Shown here: positions 4,741-62,058 of the stretch, in pieces
Layout of the letters: the number at the start of each line of letters is the position of its first letter
Numbering within the stretch: position 1 is the stretch's first letter
IMG/VR virus record: IMGVR_UViG_3300036766_002288
Coordinates: 62,001-126,000 of that record
Direction: 5' to 3' (one strand)
Origin: a virus
Length of the DNA: 64,000 bases
Notes under the pieces: generated by a model
What the model saw: only the letters and a program-made list of their open reading frames with translations
Database searches by the model: none
Told to the model about the DNA's origin: nothing
Translations under genes and position numbers: made by a program

Positions 4741-4823
4741 GGTAGGTTCGGCATTGGCAAGCCAGCTTATTTCGAAAATAAGTAAACCGAAAGGTTTTGA
4801 GAATTCAACTTTCTCACCTACCG
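4741..4823 (+). tRNA. tRNA-Ser(CGA)
   Basis: Perfect 7-bp acceptor stem GGTAGGT/ACCTACC, anticodon arm CTTAT-TTCGAAA-ATAAG giving anticodon CGA (codon UCG), a long class II variable arm (AAACC-GAAA-GGTTT) and T arm GAGAA-TTCAACT-TTCTC. No CCA is encoded. First member of the array. Confidence 0.9.
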
Positions 4824-4852
4824 CTATACCTTAGTTGTACTGACTAAGGAAA

Positions 4853-4938
4853 GGGTGCTGTTCCACACGCTTGTCTGTAAAACAAGTGCCATTAATATGT
4901 GTGGTGGATGGCGATGGGTTCAAATCCTACGGTGCCCA
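4853..4938 (+). tRNA. Aberrant tRNA-Tyr(GTA)-like gene
   Basis: The acceptor GGGTGCT/GGTGCCC pairs with four Watson-Crick and three G-T pairs, and the anticodon arm CTTGT-CTGTAAA-ACAAG gives GTA (Tyr). The D region is only about 10 nt and lacks the GG of a normal D loop. The variable region is 26 nt, and its GTGTGG can pair with CCACAC in the D region. It may be a degenerate copy of the normal Tyr tRNA just downstream or an unusual fold. Confidence 0.55.
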
Positions 4939-4946
4939 CTTGAAAT

Positions 4947-5029
4947 GTAGCGTTTGGGCATTGGCAAGCCCCACTGACTGTAAATCAGCCGCCCTATGGG
5001 CATTGTAGATTCGACTCCTGCACGCTGCA
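4947..5029 (+). tRNA. tRNA-Tyr(GTA)
   Basis: Acceptor GTAGCGT/ACGCTGC with one T-G pair, a D loop with GG, anticodon loop CTGTAAA (GTA), class II variable arm GCCC-TAT-GGGC, T loop TTCGACT and discriminator A. Some stem mismatches (first T-stem pair A/C) suggest relaxed constraint. Confidence 0.85.
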
Positions 5030-5036
5030 CTGACTT

Positions 5037-5125
5037 GGAGTAAATTGAAAGTGGCTATTCTAATCACTCCGCTAAAGTGACAGGTGGGGAAACCCGCCTT
5101 GTGAGTTCGACGCTCACTTACTCCG
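5037..5125 (+). tRNA. tRNA-Ser(GCT)
   Basis: Perfect acceptor GGAGTAA/TTACTCC, anticodon stem TCACT/AGTGA with loop CCGCTAA (anticodon GCT), long variable arm AGGTGGG-GAAA-CCCGCCT and T arm GTGAG-TTCGACG-CTCAC. Position 33 is C instead of the near-universal T, which is unusual. Confidence 0.85.
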
Positions 5126-5126
5126 C

Positions 5127-5155
5127 TTCAATAAATTTTCCAAAAATTTATTGAA
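5127..5155 (+). repeat. Perfect 13-bp hairpin upstream of the first HNH gene
   Basis: TTCAATAAATTTT (5127-5139) and its exact complement (5143-5155) flank a 3-nt loop. It begins 2 nt after the Ser tRNA. A related hairpin precedes the second HNH gene at 7070-7095, so it may be part of the mobile cassette. It lacks the GC content of a typical terminator. Confidence 0.75.
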
Positions 5156-5158
5156 CGG

Positions 5159-5187
5159 TTACTCTTGTATTATTATACAAGGAGTAA
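5159..5187 (+). promoter_or_regulatory. Hairpin sequestering the ribosome binding site of an HNH endonuclease
   Basis: TTACTCTTGTAT (5159-5170) pairs with ATACAAGGAGTAA (5175-5187), leaving one bulged G. The 3' arm contains the AAGGAG Shine-Dalgarno 6 nt before the ATG at 5191. This resembles the RBS-occluding hairpins known for T4 homing endonucleases such as I-TevI. Confidence 0.65.
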
Positions 5188-5190
5188 TCT

Positions 5191-5742
5191 ATGAAAAATT
5201 TAGAAGTCGAAATTATGACATTAAGGGAAGATGGGCATTCTTACAACGCCATAGCAAAAAAACTAAATTGTTCTAAAGGCACAATTAGTTATTATTGCGG
5301 TGAAGGACAAAAACAAAAAAGTAAAACAAGGATTCAGAATAGAAGAAAAAATACTGTAATTTCGAAACGTGTTGAAAACTTTCAAATTGATAGAAAAATA
5401 AGAGACAAATCTGAAGATTTTCAACGGGAAAGAATAATTGTTAAGAGTAAAACTCGTTTAGGCAAACGGTCTTTGACATTTACTTGGAGAGATGTAATTG
5501 ATAAATTCGGATGGGAAACAATATGTTATCTAACTGGAAGGGCTATAAATTTAAGAGAGCCGAAAACTTATCAGTTTGACCATATACATCCTTACGGCAA
5601 AGGAGGAAGTTCAACTTTAGATAATTTAGGTATTCTTATTAAAGAAGTAAATCAAGCTAAGGCAGACATGACCGTTGAAGAATTTTTAAATCTATGTAAA
5701 GACGTTTTGGAATATAATGGCTATGAAGTAAAACGTTTGTAA
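5191..5742 (+). CDS. HNH homing endonuclease
   Basis: A 183-residue free-standing homing endonuclease. Residues about 1-35 form a helix-turn-helix (EDGHSYNAIAKKLNCSKGTI) that would bind the target. The C-terminal HNH core has CYLTGRAINL, the FDHIHPYGKGG segment (catalytic His) and the DNLG-x-L-x-K-E-x-N helix. It sits between tRNA genes, and a paralogue with the same architecture lies at 7116. Its ribosome site is in a hairpin, suggesting restricted expression. Confidence 0.88.
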   Translation: MKNLEVEIMTLREDGHSYNAIAKKLNCSKGTISYYCGEGQKQKSKTRIQNRRKNTVISKRVENFQIDRKIRDKSEDFQRERIIVKSKTRLGKRSLTFTWRDVIDKFGWETICYLTGRAINLREPKTYQFDHIHPYGKGGSSTLDNLGILIKEVNQAKADMTVEEFLNLCKDVLEYNGYEVKRL

Positions 5743-5760
5743 ATGGAAGCTTCCGCTTAT

Positions 5761-5834
5761 GGCACAGTAGGCAATTAGCAGACCACTTTCGCTTAAAACG
5801 AGAGATGCTGTCAGTGCAAATCTGACCTGTGCTA
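5761..5834 (+). tRNA. tRNA-Leu(TAA) with short variable loop
   Basis: Acceptor GGCACAG/CTGTGCT, anticodon stem CTTTCG/CGAGAG and loop CTTAAAA (anticodon TAA). Length is only 74 nt because the variable region is about 5 nt, whereas bacterial Leu tRNAs have a long class II arm. The T loop reads TGCAAAT instead of TTC, and the D loop lacks GG. First of three tandem copies. Confidence 0.78.
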
Positions 5835-5838
5835 CTTT

Positions 5839-5912
5839 GGCGACGTAGGCAATTAGCAGACCACTTAGACTCAGACTCTGAGATGCTGTCAGTGCAAGTC
5901 TGACCGTCGCTA
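5839..5912 (+). tRNA. tRNA-Leu(CAG) with short variable loop
   Basis: A 74-nt tRNA, acceptor GGCGACG/CGTCGCT, anticodon stem CTTAGA/TCTGAG, loop CTCAGAC (anticodon CAG). The D region is identical to the neighbours at 5761 and 5919. The anticodon stem differs from both but stays paired, which argues that it is functional. T loop TGCAAGT. Confidence 0.78.
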
Positions 5913-5918
5913 CTTTTT

Positions 5919-5992
5919 GGCAACGTAGGCAATTAGCAGACCACTTTCTTTCAAACGGAGAGATGCTATGGGTGCGAGTCCCATCGTTGCTA
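5919..5992 (+). tRNA. tRNA-Leu(CAA) with short variable loop
   Basis: A 74-nt tRNA, acceptor GGCAACG/CGTTGCT, anticodon stem CTTTCT/GGAGAG, loop TTCAAAC (anticodon CAA), T arm ATGGG-TGCGAGT-CCCAT. Same aberrant D loop and TGC T loop as the two preceding genes. A coding sequence starts 2 nt after its 3' end. Confidence 0.78.
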
Positions 5993-5994
5993 CT

Positions 5995-6168
5995 ATGATA
6001 CCTAGACGTTTCAGAATACTATCTTCGTCCTCAATTATGACAGAATTAGGGATCAAAGACACCTATGGTGTTTTCTTTCCTGACTTTGGCACATTCATTA
6101 TAATGTCTGAAGAAAGAGGAATAGATGAGTTTGATGGTTGTCCCGAAGATGTTGAGTGGTTGGACTAG
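5995..6168 (+). CDS. Small hypothetical protein following a tRNA
   Basis: A 57-residue acidic protein whose ATG lies 2 nt after the tRNA-Leu(CAA) discriminator base, with no Shine-Dalgarno. If the tRNA is cut out of a common transcript, the mRNA would start CTATG. The last 30 residues contain several Asp/Glu. No family recognised. An internal Met (MTELGIKDTY) is an alternative start. Confidence 0.5.
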   Translation: MIPRRFRILSSSSIMTELGIKDTYGVFFPDFGTFIIMSEERGIDEFDGCPEDVEWLD

Positions 6169-6175
6169 ATAGTAT

Positions 6176-6922
6176 ATGGCTATTTTCCTAGAACATGTGA
6201 ATAAGCGAGATTTAAATAAAAGATTATTTGAAACTTTTGGCAAGTACAAAGTCTTCATTGTAGACGGCCAAGCCATTAGAAAACTTAATCTAACTGACCA
6301 TGAGTTTACTGATTCCGCCATCCATGCTACCTTTCCTAAATTAATACCAGATAAGGAAATATGGATAGATGATGTAATCAAACCGAATGAAAGATTTATA
6401 TTGATAAGTAATTTACTATCATTATACAAGTATTTAAGTAAAGAATCCTTGGACAAAGCTTATGATAAAGCATTGAAAAAAGAAAAGTCGATGAGGGAAA
6501 AGGTAGACAACGTAAGATTACATCCAGAAAAAACGAATGAAAGAGCGTCACCGAAGGTTTACAAGAGTCTATATGGTAAGATTGGAGATGTTAAGATTTG
6601 GTTGGTAGATGGGGAATACGTAAGAGATAAGTATAAGACAGATTATACCGAAGGTGGACACGATTACGTATACAAATGGATTCCACACAATGAAATTTGG
6701 ATTGAGTCCACAATGCATAAGTCTGAAATGCCTTTGATCGTTTTACATGAATTTGTGGAAAGAACATTGATGAAGACCAAGGGAATAGAGTATGATAAGG
6801 CACATACGATTGCATCGAAAGTGGAATTTGCAAAAGAAGATAAGTTTGATAGGAACGATGTTTTATCCATGACTGAGGATAAGGCATTGAAGATGGACGA
6901 GACGCGAGTGGTTAGCAACTGA
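6176..6922 (+). CDS. Duplicated HE-x-x-ER protein (metallopeptidase-like), function unknown
   Basis: A 248-residue protein with two related halves: residues about 25-105 (VFIVDGQAIRK, EIWIDD, then a helical region) and 130-215 (IWLVDGEYVRD, EIWIEST). The second half has LHEFVER followed by YDKAHTIAS, an HExxE-type putative metal site found in small phage and bacterial proteins; the first half has lost the His. The last 9-10 codons run into the tRNA-Ser at 6895, so the C-terminus may have been replaced when the tRNA arrived. Confidence 0.65.
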   Translation: MAIFLEHVNKRDLNKRLFETFGKYKVFIVDGQAIRKLNLTDHEFTDSAIHATFPKLIPDKEIWIDDVIKPNERFILISNLLSLYKYLSKESLDKAYDKALKKEKSMREKVDNVRLHPEKTNERASPKVYKSLYGKIGDVKIWLVDGEYVRDKYKTDYTEGGHDYVYKWIPHNEIWIESTMHKSEMPLIVLHEFVERTLMKTKGIEYDKAHTIASKVEFAKEDKFDRNDVLSMTEDKALKMDETRVVSN

Positions 6923-6977
6923 TTTTGAAAATCAGGGGACCGAAAGGTTCTGTGGGTTCGAATCCCATCTCGATCCG
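6895..6977 (+). tRNA. tRNA-Ser(TGA), copy 1
   Basis: Anticodon arm CTGAT-TTTGAAA-ATCAG (TGA), class II variable arm with GACC-GAAA-GGTT, T arm GTGGG-TTCGAAT-CCCAT, discriminator G. The acceptor pairs as GGA-CGAG with CTCG-A-TCC, so one base of the 3' strand is unpaired. It overlaps the end of the preceding coding sequence by 28 nt. Confidence 0.82.
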
Positions 6978-6980
6978 CTT

Positions 6981-7067
6981 GGAGCGTTGGCAGAGTGGCT
7001 GAATGCGCTAGTCTTGAAAACTAGAGTCCCCTCACGGGGACCGAGGGTTCAAATCCTTCACGCTCCG
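6981..7067 (+). tRNA. tRNA-Ser(TGA), copy 2
   Basis: Perfect acceptor GGAGCGT/ACGCTCC, D loop with GG, anticodon arm CTAGT-CTTGAAA-ACTAG (TGA), variable arm GTCCCC-TCAC-GGGGAC, T arm with TTCAAAT, discriminator G. A fully canonical class II tRNA, 3 nt after a second Ser(TGA) gene. Confidence 0.93.
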
Positions 7068-7069
7068 TA

Positions 7070-7114
7070 CAATAAAATTATCATAATTTTTATTGAACCC
7101 TAACTATGTTAGGG
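7070..7114 (+). promoter_or_regulatory. Two hairpins upstream of the second HNH gene
   Basis: CAATAAAATTAT (7070-7081) pairs with ATAATTTTTATTG (7083-7095) with one extra T. CCCTAAC (7098-7104) pairs with GTTAGGG (7108-7114), ending one base before the ATG. The arrangement parallels the two hairpins before the HNH gene at 5191, pointing to shared post-transcriptional control. Confidence 0.6.
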
Positions 7115-7115
7115 C

Positions 7116-7640
7116 ATGAAAGAACAAATATTAAAACTCCGTGCAGAAGGTTTGTCTTATAGGGAAATCTGTGCCCGATTAGACTGCTCAAAAAGTGTAG
7201 TGTCCTACCATTGTGGGGATGGACAAAAAGTAAAAACTAGGATTAGGGCACAAAAAAGACGAGGCAGGGCGGTTGTAGATAATAAAATTTATAGATTCAA
7301 AAATAAAAAAGCCTTGAGAGACAAAACGAACGATTTCCAACGAAGAGAAGGGGGCAAGCTTAAAATTAGAAAAATTATTTTTAATTATGAAGATGTAATG
7401 CAAAAATTTGGAGAAACCCCTATATGCTATTTAACGGGAAGAGAAATAAATTTAGAAGACACAAAAAACTATCACTTTGACCATATTATACCAGCAACGC
7501 GCGGCGGCTCAAACGATATAGATAATTTAGGACTAGCGTGTAAAGAAGCAAATAAAGCTAAGTCAGATATGACAATAAATGAGTTTATACAAATTTGTAA
7601 AGAAGTATTAGAGCATAATGGTTACAGGGTAATTAAGTAA
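7116..7640 (+). CDS. HNH homing endonuclease, paralogue of the 5191 gene
   Basis: 174 residues with the same order as the gene at 5191: N-terminal helix-turn-helix (EGLSYREICARLDCSKSVV), a basic linker, then the HNH core with CYLTGREINLED, FDHIIPATRGG and DNLGLACKEANKAKSDMT. It lies between tRNA-Ser genes. There is no strong Shine-Dalgarno; a hairpin abuts the start codon. Probably a mobile cassette that targets tRNA loci. Confidence 0.88.
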   Translation: MKEQILKLRAEGLSYREICARLDCSKSVVSYHCGDGQKVKTRIRAQKRRGRAVVDNKIYRFKNKKALRDKTNDFQRREGGKLKIRKIIFNYEDVMQKFGETPICYLTGREINLEDTKNYHFDHIIPATRGGSNDIDNLGLACKEANKAKSDMTINEFIQICKEVLEHNGYRVIK

Positions 7641-7642
7641 TT

Positions 7643-7729
7643 GGACGGTTTGGACATTGGCAAGTCCCCTTAGTTGGAAACTAAGTACACCCGAAAGGGT
7701 GTGTAGAGTTCGAATCTCTAACCGCTCCG
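7643..7729 (+). tRNA. tRNA-Ser(GGA)
   Basis: Anticodon arm CTTAG-TTGGAAA-CTAAG (GGA), class II variable arm ACACCC-GAAA-GGGTGT, T arm TAGAG-TTCGAAT-CTCTA, discriminator G. The acceptor pairs as GGA-CGGT with ACCG-C-TCC, leaving one unpaired 3'-strand base, the same irregularity as in the Ser tRNA at 6895. Confidence 0.82.
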
Positions 7730-7734
7730 CTTAT

Positions 7735-7811
7735 GGCGCAGTGATGCAACCTTCGGCAGACATTCTTGACTTAGAATCAAGATTATATGGGTTCGAATCC
7801 CATCTGCGCTA
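7735..7811 (+). tRNA. tRNA-Leu(TAG) with short variable loop
   Basis: Acceptor GGCGCAG/CTGCGCT, a D region ending in the Leu-like GGCAGACA, anticodon arm CTTGA-CTTAGAA-TCAAG (TAG), variable loop of about 5 nt, canonical T arm ATGGG-TTCGAAT-CCCAT. Fourth Leu tRNA here without the long variable arm. Confidence 0.8.
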
Positions 7812-7827
7812 GTATAATAGTGAAAAT

Positions 7828-7910
7828 GCGGTAGTGGCGGAACGGTATACGCGCTTGCTTGAGGTGCAAGTCCCTTAAGTGGGATGTGGGTTCGACTCCC
7901 ACCTACCGCA
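7828..7910 (+). tRNA. tRNA-Leu(GAG)
   Basis: Perfect acceptor GCGGTAG/CTACCGC, Leu-type D arm, anticodon arm CTTGC-TTGAGGT-GCAAG (GAG), class II variable arm TCCC-TTAAGT-GGGA, T arm GTGGG-TTCGACT-CCCAC, discriminator A. A coding sequence begins 2 nt later. Confidence 0.93.
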
Positions 7911-7912
7911 CT

Positions 7913-8155
7913 ATGAAAACTACATATTATCGACAATGCAAATTGCAGAAAAAGAACACCTTCCAAACCAGCTATATTCCAGAAGAATTTGCTGTTATGA
8001 ATAAGATTATTAAACTACGTGACAACAACGTATGGGATGATGGCTGGAAGGTCATCGCAGTTAGTTCTTCACGGCACGCAGATGATAACCTGCCTGACTC
8101 TCATTCTTCAATTAAGGCACATCGTAGGGCAACTGGTGATTCACAAAGGAAATAA
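7913..8155 (+). CDS. Conserved small phage protein
   Basis: An 80-residue protein starting MKTTYYRQCKLQKK, with YIPEEFA, KIIKLRD and GWKVIAV segments typical of a small beta-type protein seen in many phages. Its ATG is 2 nt after the tRNA-Leu(GAG) 3' end with no Shine-Dalgarno. An upstream in-frame ATG lies inside the tRNA and is unlikely to be used. Function unknown. Confidence 0.65.
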   Translation: MKTTYYRQCKLQKKNTFQTSYIPEEFAVMNKIIKLRDNNVWDDGWKVIAVSSSRHADDNLPDSHSSIKAHRRATGDSQRK

Positions 8156-8156
8156 T

Positions 8157-8441
8157 ATGTGTTTCATATATGATGAATACGCCGAACTTTACAAAGAAAA
8201 AGACGTAAAGGCAAAAAAAGAACACAAATGTTCTGAATGCGCCAGAACTATCTTTAAAAATGAGACGTATCAATATATTTTCACAATATTTCAAGGTGAT
8301 GCGACCACTACAAAGATTTGTTCAGATTGCAAGGATAAAAGACAAAAAATACATGATATAGAGATTAGTCATGGATGTAGCGAAAATGAATCTTGGCCTC
8401 CTTTAGGCGAACTAAGGGAATATTTACAACATTATGAATGA
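8157..8441 (+). CDS. Small zinc-binding protein
   Basis: 94 residues with two Cys pairs (CSEC at about 26-29 and CSDC at about 57-60) forming a likely zinc ribbon, then an acidic C-terminal helix with a PPLGELREYL segment. The start follows AAAGGAAA. It is 2 nt from the upstream stop, so the two form an operon. Function unknown; similar small zinc proteins are common in phages. Confidence 0.7.
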   Translation: MCFIYDEYAELYKEKDVKAKKEHKCSECARTIFKNETYQYIFTIFQGDATTTKICSDCKDKRQKIHDIEISHGCSENESWPPLGELREYLQHYE

Positions 8442-8462
8442 TATATACTGTAAAGGAGTATC

Positions 8463-8660
8463 ATGGACAAGCGTGAATACCGACAACTAAAAAGGACTTT
8501 AAAAAAAGAAGGCAACAAAAAGGCACGAAAAAAACTTAAAAATGACTTAAGAGACAATCCTGAAGAAACCCATTGGTCAGAGATAGATTACGGCAACTGT
8601 AAGACCGAAGATATGAAAAAATACAGCAGAGGACATGAAGATGAATATAGGTCTATTTGA
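8463..8660 (+). CDS. Small basic hypothetical protein
   Basis: 65 residues, very Lys/Arg-rich in the first 30 (KREYRQLKRTLKKEGNKKAR), then acidic with an ETHWSEIDYG segment. It starts 7 nt after AAAGGAG; a TATATA box lies further upstream. Its end overlaps the following nucleotidase gene by 26 nt. Function unknown; the basic part may bind nucleic acid. Confidence 0.6.
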   Translation: MDKREYRQLKRTLKKEGNKKARKKLKNDLRDNPEETHWSEIDYGNCKTEDMKKYSRGHEDEYRSI

Positions 8661-9210
8661 TATGGACGGTAGCTTAGCTGATTATGAAGGTCAACTAAGG
8701 AAGGATTTGACCAAATGTCTTGGTGAAGAAGATTTGAAAAAGTTCGATGAGTTAGGCATGTGGAAAGCTGACGACCAAGAACCATTTAAATCACTCATTA
8801 GACTGATTAAGAATCAACCTTGTTGGTGGAAGAATCTCCCAGTAATGCAGAAAGGACTGGATATTTTCCACCTTGCTGTGCAGATTGGTTTTAAGAACCA
8901 TATTTTAACTAAGGGTCCAAAACATTATCCAAGGGCGTGGAAAGAAAAAGTTGAATGGTCTCAGCATTTATTTGGCAAGGATATTGACATTCATATAACA
9001 TCGGATAAAGGGTTAGTTTACGGCAGATTTTTATATGACGATTATCCTGATTATATGTTAAAATGGCTTGGGAGGCGTCCAAGGGGTTTGGGTATTATGC
9101 CAGTGAACAATTTCAATAAGGATTTTAACCATCCACAGGTAATTAAATGGGATGGAATAAACTATGATGAAGTGAAGGAAGCGTTGATAAAATGTTTCAA
9201 TAGGGGCTAA
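8635..9210 (+). CDS. 5'(3')-deoxyribonucleotidase-like HAD phosphatase
   Basis: 191 residues with HAD motif I FDMDGSLADYE (nucleophile Asp, residues about 8-18), a helical cap, motif II LTKGP (about 102) and motif IV LYDDYPDYM (about 140). Length and the D-x-D-G-S-L-A-D form fit the NT5C-type deoxynucleotidases that trim nucleotide pools. Two in-frame ATGs (8635 and 8641) are possible. The stop codon lies within a tRNA-like remnant. Confidence 0.75.
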   Translation: MKMNIGLFDMDGSLADYEGQLRKDLTKCLGEEDLKKFDELGMWKADDQEPFKSLIRLIKNQPCWWKNLPVMQKGLDIFHLAVQIGFKNHILTKGPKHYPRAWKEKVEWSQHLFGKDIDIHITSDKGLVYGRFLYDDYPDYMLKWLGRRPRGLGIMPVNNFNKDFNHPQVIKWDGINYDEVKEALIKCFNRG

Positions 9211-9231
9211 GTGGCAAAACGGTATACGCAG
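9203..9231 (+). pseudogene. Remnant of a Leu tRNA 5' half
   Basis: The sequence GGGGCTAAGTGGCAAAAC followed by GGTATACGCAG matches the acceptor and D arm of the Leu tRNAs at 9752 and 10780, then breaks off. It ends shortly before an HNH gene whose other side is an intact tRNA-Leu, suggesting insertion next to, or duplication of, a tRNA by the endonuclease cassette. Confidence 0.6.
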
Positions 9232-9255
9232 AAATAAAAATTAAAACGTGTTTAC

Positions 9256-9261
9256 TATATT
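9256..9261 (+). promoter_or_regulatory. Late-type TATATT box
   Basis: Lies 5 nt upstream of the ATG at 9267, with no Shine-Dalgarno between. Same geometry as the TAWATA boxes found elsewhere in the window. Confidence 0.45.
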
Positions 9262-9266
9262 AGTTG

Positions 9267-9749
9267 ATGAGAAAAAGAAAATGGAATGACGAGCAATTAA
9301 TAGAAGCTGTTAAAACAAGCAAATCGGTGATGGAAGTATTGAAAAAAATTGGCTTAGGTTTAAGTGGTGGCTCCCATGCTTTGGTAAAAATGAGGATTAA
9401 ACATCTTAAAATTGATAATTCTCATTTTACAGGAAAAGGATGGTGCAGAGGGGAAAAGCACGAGGAATTCATTAAGCGAGTACTTCAGTATCCTTTAGAA
9501 CAAGTTTTAGTCAGAGATTCAACTTATCAGAACACACATGCCTTGAAAAAAAGACTTATAAAAGAAGGATTATTAATAAACGAATGTTGTAATTGTAAAC
9601 TAACCACATGGCTCAATGAGCCTATCAGTTTACAATTACATCATAAAGATGGAGATAGATGTAATAATTTGATTGGAAATCTATCAATACTATGTCCAAA
9701 TTGTCATAGTCAAACATCTACATTTGCAGGTAAGAGTAAAAGAAAATAA
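9267..9749 (+). CDS. HNH homing endonuclease (second subfamily)
   Basis: 160 residues. The N-terminal half has a K-x-S-K-SVMEVLKKIGLGLSGGSH segment that looks like a NUMOD/HTH target-binding module. The HNH core has a C-x-x-C zinc knuckle (CCNCKLTTW), LHHKDGDRCNN (catalytic His) and the ILCPNCHSQT finger. It is paralogous to the gene at 16380. A TTG three bases upstream is in frame but the ATG is preferred. It is flanked by a Leu tRNA remnant and an intact Leu tRNA. Confidence 0.88.
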   Translation: MRKRKWNDEQLIEAVKTSKSVMEVLKKIGLGLSGGSHALVKMRIKHLKIDNSHFTGKGWCRGEKHEEFIKRVLQYPLEQVLVRDSTYQNTHALKKRLIKEGLLINECCNCKLTTWLNEPISLQLHHKDGDRCNNLIGNLSILCPNCHSQTSTFAGKSKRK

Positions 9750-9751
9750 AC

Positions 9752-9832
9752 GGCCAAGTGGCGGAATGGTATACGCGGCACACTCAAAATGTGTTGTCCT
9801 TGGGCATGTGGGTTCGACTCCCACCTTGGCTA
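9752..9832 (+). tRNA. tRNA-Leu(CAA)
   Basis: Acceptor GGCCAAG/CTTGGCT, Leu-type D arm, anticodon stem GCACA/TGTGT with loop CTCAAAA (CAA), class II variable arm, T arm GTGGG-TTCGACT-CCCAC, discriminator A. A coding sequence begins 3 nt downstream. Confidence 0.9.
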
Positions 9833-9835
9833 CTT

Positions 9836-9997
9836 ATGAATACAAGTCTCAAATATCATGAAAAGATTTGGAAAGAATCCAGTTTTTTAACAAAGATTAA
9901 ATTTATTTTTTTTGGTTCGATCATATTCATGATCTTAATCGTTGGGTATTGTTGGGACAATGGAATTAAGAAGACATTGGATTTATTCAAAGAATGA
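9836..9997 (+). CDS. Small membrane protein following a tRNA
   Basis: 53 residues, with a basic N-terminal helix and one transmembrane segment (FIFFGSIIFMILIVGYCW, about 24-41). The ATG is 3 nt after the tRNA-Leu(CAA) end and has no Shine-Dalgarno. The stop overlaps the next start by 4 nt (ATGA). Function unknown. Confidence 0.6.
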   Translation: MNTSLKYHEKIWKESSFLTKIKFIFFGSIIFMILIVGYCWDNGIKKTLDLFKE

Positions 9998-10419
9998 GCG
10001 TATTTCTATATAATTTTGAGCTTTTAACATGGATGCAATGGAAGATAAACTATCTTCCAGGCATTAGGGTTCAATGTGATTTCAGCAAGATTAATGCTAC
10101 ACCAGCGGTTCATATTGCAACTACGACAGATCAAATACGTTATCCTTGGTATGAAAATGGTGATTGGCGGGATGGGACTCCGTTGTGGTTCAAAGTTGGT
10201 GGTGGCCAGGTATTATGGCGGGGGCCTGCTGTAAGATATAAAGGTGTTTATTTAATTTTAGATGGGTGTCATAGGCTTCTTGACTTACAGCCAAGTATTG
10301 TTATAATGGATTATATTGATTTGAAGCAGGAAGAAATTTGTTATTTTAGTGACCTTTTAGGGATGTGGAACAATGACAATCCAAGAAGCGGCTGGTTTTT
10401 TGGTAAAACACCTGAATGA
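9994..10419 (+). CDS. Hypothetical protein
   Basis: 141 residues, with beta-rich segments (VQCDFSKINATPAVHIATTT) and a conserved-looking YLILDGCHRLLDLQPSIVIMDYI stretch reminiscent of ParB/Srx-type 'DGxHR' proteins. That resemblance is weak and I assign no function. Start coupled to the upstream gene by ATGA overlap. Confidence 0.55.
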   Translation: MSVFLYNFELLTWMQWKINYLPGIRVQCDFSKINATPAVHIATTTDQIRYPWYENGDWRDGTPLWFKVGGGQVLWRGPAVRYKGVYLILDGCHRLLDLQPSIVIMDYIDLKQEEICYFSDLLGMWNNDNPRSGWFFGKTPE

Positions 10420-10561
10420 TCCAGAAACATTTATTGTTTCTGTTCGGGATAATGAAATCTTTGTAGACGTTAATTGGATTTATCGTAAGTATGAAATAGA
10501 TCAATTAGGCGGCAGTTGGAACGGGTTTCCAGTGAAAACAGGTCGCATAAGTTGTTGGTAA
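10373..10561 (+). CDS. Small hypothetical protein
   Basis: 62 residues overlapping the previous gene by 47 nt. It looks like a compact alpha/beta protein (IQEAAGFLVKHLNDPETF, IFVDVNWIYRKY). The overlap is large but typical of this genome. No family recognised. Confidence 0.45.
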   Translation: MTIQEAAGFLVKHLNDPETFIVSVRDNEIFVDVNWIYRKYEIDQLGGSWNGFPVKTGRISCW

Positions 10562-10779
10562 GCAGCAATCGTGGCGGGTAGTGAGCATAGCAGGGGCGAA
10601 AACGCAAATATTCCGCGAACGAAGGACTGGGCGAGTGAGTGGTGAGCGATCTTTCTTTATTCATGGATGAATAAGTGGCTTATTAGAGGCGAAGTTCATC
10701 TAACTATGACAACCAGAAAGAGCGGCGGATATTCTAATCGGCGGTATCAAAAGGCGTGACACCTGCATAGTCGATTGAT
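10562..10779 (+). other. GC-richer intergenic region before a tRNA
   Basis: About 218 nt with no convincing reading frame. Its first 110 nt are visibly richer in G and C than the surrounding AT-rich DNA. It could hold a structured RNA or be recently acquired, but I see no defined fold. Confidence 0.3.
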
Positions 10780-10861
10780 GGCCAAGTGGTGGAACGGTAT
10801 ACACAGCAGACTTAAAATCTGCCGCCCGTTGGGCTTGCGGGTTCAACTCCCGCCTTGGCCA
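10780..10861 (+). tRNA. tRNA-Leu(TAA)
   Basis: Perfect acceptor GGCCAAG/CTTGGCC, anticodon arm GCAGA-CTTAAAA-TCTGC (TAA), class II variable arm GCCCG-TT-GGGC, T arm GCGGG-TTCAACT-CCCGC, discriminator A. A second Leu(TAA), of normal class II form. A coding sequence begins 4 nt later. Confidence 0.93.
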
Positions 10862-10865
10862 CTAT

Positions 10866-27535: not shown

Positions 27536-27554
27536 AGGAATAGGAGATAGTAAA

Positions 27555-28491
27555 ATGAATAAGAAAAACAAAAAACCAGAAGTAAATCTTGCAAATCAAG
27601 TCCCCCAATCCTGTCTTTGACAATTCTAATGAAATCATCCTAGAAATTCAGTTTGGAACAGGTGGGGAAGATAGCAAACTTTTCACCTATGACCTGTTCT
27701 CAGCATACGTAAAATACGCAGAACGAAACGGACTAAATGTAGAAATTTTAAATGACGAAAATGGCCACATCGTTGCCCAAGTTAAAGGAACCAACGCTGG
27801 TCAATATTTCAGAAATGAAACAGGTAAACATATAGTCCAACGAGTCCCACCAACAGAGTCTAAAGGACGAAGACAAACCTCCGTCATCTCTGTTGCTGTA
27901 CTACCACTACCACCTGAGAATAAATATAAACCATTACCAGATAACGAGTTAGATATAATTGCTCAATGTGGTAGTGGCCCAGGTGGGCAGCATCAGAATA
28001 AGTCGGCAACGACAATAAGGATGAAGCATTTACCAACAGGGTTATCTGTTCATATAGTAGGAAGGTCGCAATTAGCGAATAAAAAGGAAGCTTTAAAGAT
28101 ATTGACTACGAAGGTCAATGAGAAGTTCATAACTGATGAAACCGAGAAGCATAATTATCTGAGAAGAAAAACCTTGGGGGATGGTGCTAGGGGTGATAAG
28201 ATAAGGACATACAACTTTATTGATTCCAGGGCTACTGACCATAGGTTCAATATAAAAACTGGCAACATTAAAGGGGTAATGCGTGGTGATTTTACCTTGC
28301 TTTACCCTAAAGAAGAAGTTAGAATAGAGCCTAAATTCATGCACATTGCTGATGCCAGATGTTTAGAACTCAGTAAGGGTGATGCGATGACCGAGAACGA
28401 AGAAAAGCATACTGACGTATGTGATTGGTGTTTGGAGTATGTTTTGGATGGCAAAAAACCATCTCATTCTGCGCCTTCAAAAATAAATTAA
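27555..28491 (+). CDS. Class I peptide-chain release factor (RF1-like), predicted +1 programmed frameshift
   Basis: The ATG at 27555 has AGGAG 8 nt upstream and opens a 21-codon frame ending at CTT TGA (27615-27620). The +1 frame continues to 28491. The product, about 311 residues, lacks release-factor domain 1. It has the stop-recognition region QRVPPTESKGRRQTS, with P-P-T where RF1 has P-x-T and RF2 has SPF, the GGQ motif (GPGGQHQNKS) and RTYNFIDSRATDHR. The tail adds CDWC and a basic end. The slip site CTTTGAC is identical to that of bacterial prfB, but no AGGGGG stimulator precedes it. A TTG start at 27589 would be the alternative. Confidence 0.8.
27615..27621 (+). promoter_or_regulatory. 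Predicted +1 frameshift site CTT TGA C
   Basis: Frame-0 CTT precedes the UGA stop; slipping to TTT-GAC enters the release-factor frame. This heptamer is the known prfB autoregulation site, where slow UGA termination promotes the shift. Confidence 0.7.
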
Positions 28492-61852: not shown

Positions 61853-62058
61853 TTAAGTATGCTTGGAAATATGATGATGGTTCTTATTATGCTTGGTGTA
61901 GTTCTTGGGGATTCCATTGTCGTAGTATAGAGGCAGCACACCTTACCGACACTATTGAGGAGTGGGCTAGCTGTACAGCTGAGGGTAAGCCAGTTATGAT
62001 TGATGTGTTTGGTGAACTTAAATATCCGTGGAATCCGACCCGCAGAGAAATAATATGA
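61849..62058 (+). CDS. Small hypothetical protein
   Basis: 69 residues starting at GTG overlapping the MoxR stop. A compact domain with WCSSWGFHCRSIEAAH and an acidic helix. In the MoxR operon; function unknown. Confidence 0.55.
   Translation: MIKYAWKYDDGSYYAWCSSWGFHCRSIEAAHLTDTIEEWASCTAEGKPVMIDVFGELKYPWNPTRREII

Follow-up and report, generated by a model that had tools for sequence, protein, structure and literature searches.

Architecture of the locus

The window, a 64,000-nucleotide stretch (positions 62,001 to 126,000 of IMG/VR record IMGVR_UViG_3300036766_002288), lies within a 187-kb virus record, so that the release-factor gene found in it is correctly called a phage gene. At 27555-28491, a short leader and a class I release factor are encoded in two successive reading frames (Table 1). 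The leader starts at ATG 27555-27557, with AGGAG upstream, and frame 0 halts at TGA 27618-27620, with CTT (27615-27617) just before it and C next, which agrees with the claim of an initial annotation that the ATG frame ends at a prfB-type CTT TGA C (27615-27621). The +1 frame is open from GAC 27619 to TAA 28489-28491. As in prfB, a CTT slip codon is followed by an in-frame stop (CTTTGA, 27615-27620), the downstream gene lies in +1, and UGA is followed by C (27618-27621), relatives also using UAG and UAA. The AGGGGG-like Shine-Dalgarno (SD) sequence three bases before CTT is missing, as had been noted, CAATCC preceding TGT CTT; the anti-SD pairing energy upstream of the slip is +1.7, weaker than at 91% of random places of the locus. 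Without such a stimulator, the site may shift at a low rate. None of 200 dinucleotide shuffles of the upstream region gives such a leader-to-factor chain, and the +1-frameshift architecture at 27555-28491 is confirmed as real. UGA is an ordinary stop in this record, since its longer ORFs end in TAA (103), TGA (58) or TAG (25).

Table 1. Features of the release-factor locus and a related tRNA gene (window coordinates)
Feature	Position	Strand	Basis
tRNA-Leu(gag), type reading CUU; could be the slipping tRNA	7828..7911	+	tRNA gene found in window
Shine-Dalgarno AGGAG of leader ORF	27542..27546	+	sequence; SD-scored chain
0-frame leader ORF, 21 codons (MNKKNKKPEVNLANQVPQSCL), then TGA	27555..27620	+	sequence
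Slip site TGT CTT TGA C: E-site Cys codon, P-site CUU, stop UGA, +4 C	27612..27621	+	sequence; conserved in relatives
Release-factor body (domains 2-4), +1 frame, stop TAA	27619..28491	+	profile matches; predicted model; RF1-on-ribosome structures as best PDB matches
PPT, RF1-type PxT stop-recognition tripeptide	27847..27855	+	aligned with RF1
GGQ catalytic motif	27982..27990	+	sequence and alignment
C-terminal extension, ~55 residues, absent from aligned relatives; largely of low confidence in predicted model	28321..28488	+	alignment and model

Other translation genes are carried by the phage. All ten tRNA genes found in the record lie at 4741-10862 of the window and are of Ser or Leu type (long variable arm) and nothing else, covering most Ser and Leu anticodons. 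A tmRNA gene with the tag AENTYALAA lies at L217:13845-14193 (~178.8-179.2 kb in record coordinates). Neither SmpB nor a further release factor was found in the 187-kb record, which is a fragment.

An RF1-type factor without domain 1

The +1 product matches Pfam PCRF (from position 98 of 194) and RF-1, and with GGQ at 27982-27990 it is the class I release factor that had been claimed for this frame. Among NCBIfam profiles, it scores 219 bits for RF1, 146 for RF2 and 68 (67.8) for PrfH, all under the respective cut-offs (400 bits for RF1; 166.65 bits for PrfH, TIGR03072). RF1 is thus the best NCBIfam match, and the RF1-like P-P-T reported initially is found at 27847-27855; PxT is the established RF1 signature for UAA/UAG. 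Domain 1 is absent, in line with the initial reading, as the RF1 profile is matched from position 102 of 347 onwards; the positions of the features hold as well. The predicted structure (pLDDT 81.5) is of high confidence for most of residues 11-240, and the closest solved structures are those of RF1, including RF1 on the ribosome, with TM-scores of up to 0.84 by target length.

The protein therefore shares PxT, GGQ, domains 2-4 and fold with bacterial RF1 (prfA), which is also its nearest solved structure, but differs by its missing domain 1 and by a score far under the RF1 cut-off (219 versus 400 bits); a further difference is that no programmed shift is known for prfA (PMC12421855). RF2 is a poorer fit, with PPT in place of SPF and 146 bits against 219 for RF1. 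With PrfH it has in common that it is a small release-factor homologue without domain 1; membership was rejected at 68 bits against a cut-off of 167, and the full RF1 PxT region is present in the window protein. In the HTS motif of RF1, the His before TS is replaced by Gln (RRQTS), and stop specificity could be altered because of this replacement. The C-terminal extension, which the aligned relatives lack, carries a CDWC cysteine pair. Judged by sequence, the +1 frame yields an RF1-type class I release factor lacking domain 1 (D1-less), with a stop specificity predicted from a motif.

Leader-type sites in relatives

Comparison with homologous release factors, which had been proposed as a check, shows that relatives, too, have a leader that runs into CTT-stop and a factor encoded in +1. 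The first eight relatives are the huge phage LR756511 (L001; 595 kb, ~61% identity) and seven IMG/VR contigs. Four of the eight (L007, L008, L010 and L011) have one such leader ORF, three (L001, L009 and L013) have two successive shifts, and L012 has a direct start with an in-frame UAG in place of the shift. After wider scans, leader sites were found at 30 loci, 22 single and eight double, from huge phages and Obscuribacterales. In these relatives an in-frame ATG is missing, and an SD and ATG precede a leader that ends in CTT-stop; L001 and L015, the closest relatives, and most others contain no ATG, GTG or TTG in the release-factor frame before the domain. A strict test, demanding SD and ATG, at least one CTT-stop shift into the factor frame and no in-frame SD and ATG, singles out 24 of the 40 distinct loci; dinucleotide shuffles predict 0.04. 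The architecture is conserved and non-random.

The double sites combine UAA and UGA (L001), UAG and UGA (L015, L112), UGA and UGA (L009, L026), UAG and UAG (L013, L017) or UAA and UAG (L019). AGGGGG-like SD sequences three bases before CTT are present in L013, L019, L026 and L112; in L013, AGGGGG TGT CTT TAG C is followed by AGGGGG TGC CTT TAG C, which amounts to two complete prfB-like cassettes with UAG. Variants were also seen. At L028:2960-3030, the factor lies in +1 of a leader, MKNTVLV, that ends in GTT TGA A, so that the slip may occur on GTT instead of CTT. L032 and L094 (MKNQ-UGA-RGNDTG) and L151 (MNNQHFKDRTS-UGA-RDGSEE) have an in-frame UGA a few codons past the start and no shift, and fall inside the leader-site clade. 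The phage contigs of the family are nearly all metagenomic, and no cultured phage with such a gene was recognised among the matches listed in the phage collection.

Internal sites and other putative recoding in the family

In many more distant relatives, the shift lies inside domain 2, where homology shows which frames join. The junction was chosen by profile score among all +1 junctions at a stop, the codon before the stop being left free, and the best-scoring junction was CTT-stop in 73 of 73 loci (28 at first, then 45 further), compared with 12 of 1049 for CTT before other stops in the same frame relation of those genes. All 73 sites are CTT-TRR. A typical example reads CGG AGG GGT CTT TGA, so that the codons of a helix Arg-Arg also serve as an SD-like stimulator, and most internal sites have an AGGGGG-like SD. 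Their positions differ in L105, L106, L117 and L202. L006 (LR745208, 485 kb) combines an internal GGAGGGGT CTT TGA site with a recognition loop that is strongly altered (QRTSNGRIHSS).

The family is not restricted to phages. Of 53 genomes from the order to which Ca. Obscuribacter belongs, five carry a D1-less RF1-like gene with CTT TAG C in its leader. At the Obscuribacterales loci (L113-L116, L219-L223), the gene is an accessory one on the chromosome, apparently outside prophage in the two genomes inspected, where ordinary bacterial genes flank it; its neighbours include, as we take them to be from their sequence, a sigma factor and a methionine sulfoxide reductase. The four Obscuribacterales genomes searched first also have an ordinary full-length RF1.

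Another form of recoding is indicated in about 60 phage RF1-like genes of the family (L035-L041, L046, L048-L092, L165, L168, L191, L196-L209, and also L061, L162 and L163), in which a single in-frame UGA (GGY UGA) stands where a Trp is conserved. TGG encodes another Trp of these genes, and TGA and TAA are about equally frequent as stops of neighbouring ORFs. The in-frame UGA looks like a candidate for UGA readthrough in a release-factor gene.

Stop identity and evolution of the sites

Across 111 sites, the stop is UGA in 72, UAG in 33 and UAA in six, and 80 sites have C at +4. For 32 of the first 66 sites, upstream anti-SD pairing ranks among the strongest 5% within the respective locus, against ~3 expected, the window site being among those without it. 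A Cys codon occupies the E site in 15 of 28 weak-SD and 23 of 83 strong-SD sites (p 0.02, for sites that are not independent); a role of the E-site TGT as a stand-in for the missing SD is suggestive only. PPT is combined with UGA at 43 sites, UAG at 23 and UAA at four, and a link between tripeptide and slip-site stop was not seen in these counts, which cover PPT only, as tripeptides were not obtained for ~30 sites.

A quickly built tree of 131 sequences, many of whose branches are weak, places the window in a group with L001 and L015 (97). These sisters have a UAR site ahead of a UGA site, and the window has the UGA site alone. Stop identity at single-site loci changes at least 18 times on the tree, and a single clade of internal sites is rejected (AU p 0.004), which indicates that the device is kept while the stop, the place and the number of sites turn over.

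Comparison with known recoding systems

The RF2 frameshift, a textbook self-control circuit, had been regarded as specific to RF2 and the stops that RF2 reads. In prfB, a stop in the A site and slow termination allow peptidyl-tRNA-Leu to re-pair from CUU to UUU, with the C after the stop weakening termination (PMC5009743). A survey of 12,753 bacterial genomes counted 8,164 in which prfB contains a premature stop; this stop is UGA in 98.6%, UAA in 1.4% and never UAG (PMC12421855). The window family resembles prfB in its short 0-frame leader, CTT slip codon, A-site stop mostly followed by C and class I release factor in +1, and many relatives have an SD-like stretch three bases before CTT. It differs in that the protein is of RF1 type and lacks domain 1, that the stop is UGA, UAG or UAA, that sites in domain 2 and eight two-site loci occur, and that the window site has no SD-like stimulator. 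The control of the window gene appears to work like that of prfB, but the gene is not prfB: the product is RF1-type, domain 1 is missing and stop identity is free to vary.

In-frame readthrough in RF2 genes and a UAG/RF1 counterpart were described as unknown in a 2016 review, which cites a giant virus of amoebae as its one viral example (PMC5009743). Mimivirus R726 and Megavirus mg280 likewise express a viral class I release factor via recoding, with +1 shifts at CUU UAG C and CUU UAA C, respectively (PMC3521657). Their factor differs in being of eukaryotic/archaeal type, in a virus of amoebae, and in needing readthrough plus frameshift, whereas the window family is of bacterial RF1 type and occurs in phages and some bacteria. 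The Mimivirus CUU UAG C was shown by mass spectrometry to shift +1 in E. coli (PMC3521657), which makes the UAG versions mechanically plausible. Release factors have been reported in huge phages, with frameshifting not mentioned (PMC7162821), and no paper on frameshifted phage release factors was found in a literature search that mostly did not reach subscription papers and preprints.

Proposed mechanism and alternatives

Ribosomes would start at ATG 27555 and arrive at CUU with UGA in the A site. Fast termination at this UGA would release the 21-residue peptide. If termination were slow, RF2 being scarce or busy, peptidyl-tRNA-Leu, possibly the phage's own tRNA-Leu(gag), would re-pair from CUU to UUU, GAC would enter the A site and the whole factor would be made, which would then add release capacity at UAA and UAG. 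It is very likely that the gene encodes a D1-less RF1-type class I release factor and that programmed +1 frameshifting at slow termination gates its synthesis; shifting in vivo, the stops recognised and the physiological signal are what we infer. The suggestion that the gene senses host RF2 was upheld in part: UGA before a PxT factor fits it and makes it the natural reading for the window, but it is not a rule of the family, where UGA, UAG and UAA all occur under PPT. Because the stop has changed at least 18 times and no link to the tripeptide is seen, the switch seems family-wide to be a sensor of termination capacity in general, which fits better than strict self-control.

Two explanations would dispense with a programmed shift. 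The frame change could stem from gene decay or from an error of sequencing or assembly, for instance in the run of C that immediately precedes the slip site, as a single-base indel would restore one frame and the record is a metagenomic contig; but about 100 independent loci, including that of the 595-kb phage LR756511, shift always at CTT-stop, the body is intact and GGQ is invariant. Decay or error is therefore extremely improbable, and an assembly slip was rejected on the evidence of the relatives. Initiation at TTG 27589, which lies in the +1 frame and is the alternative initially considered, is also very unlikely: this TTG has no SD, whereas ATG 27555 has AGGAG, most relatives have no start codon in that frame, and internal initiation has no need of a conserved CTT-stop.

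Other alternatives accept the shift and differ on what it responds to. In self-control as in prfB, the phage factor itself would read its own slip-site stop, UGA included, through relaxed or altered specificity. The 27 UAG and UAA sites under PPT are codons that an RF1-type factor would be expected to read, and specificity may have moved, as the tripeptide varies in part of the family (PPN, PKN, PDN, PHL, SPT) and the His of HTS is Gln in many members. The RF1 signature PxT, and PPT standing over UGA more often than over UAG and UAA with tripeptide and stop unlinked, speak against it, and we consider it doubtful, though the strongest of the rivals. A near-constant shift that keeps the factor scarce and senses nothing is less probable still. 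Two serial sites would yield a low constant output, but a rare codon or weak SD would be a simpler route to scarcity, and in prfB the A-site stop and +4 C couple shifting to the release-factor level (PMC5009743).

Biological significance

Gating by slow termination remains the preferred reading. The use of the same switch on UGA, UAG and UAA, at several positions and sometimes twice, argues for a shared function, namely the provision of a release factor, from a phage or as a bacterial accessory, under conditions where termination is limiting. A wider proposal, to which we give even chances, is that RF1-type factors of phages and some Obscuribacterales are switched by recoding on all three stops, that tandem UAA and UGA or UAG and UGA sites act as an AND gate, giving full factor only when RF1-read and RF2-read termination are both slow, and that sister clades use in-frame UGA readthrough. 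Annotation will probably split genes of this kind or overlook them. Together, the ~100 related genes point to an RF1-type counterpart of the RF2 frameshift circuit, in phages and on bacterial chromosomes. Its natural versions differ in stop, position, stimulator and number of sites, so that the role of each part of the switch becomes testable, and they suggest that phages commonly carry release factors made only when termination fails.
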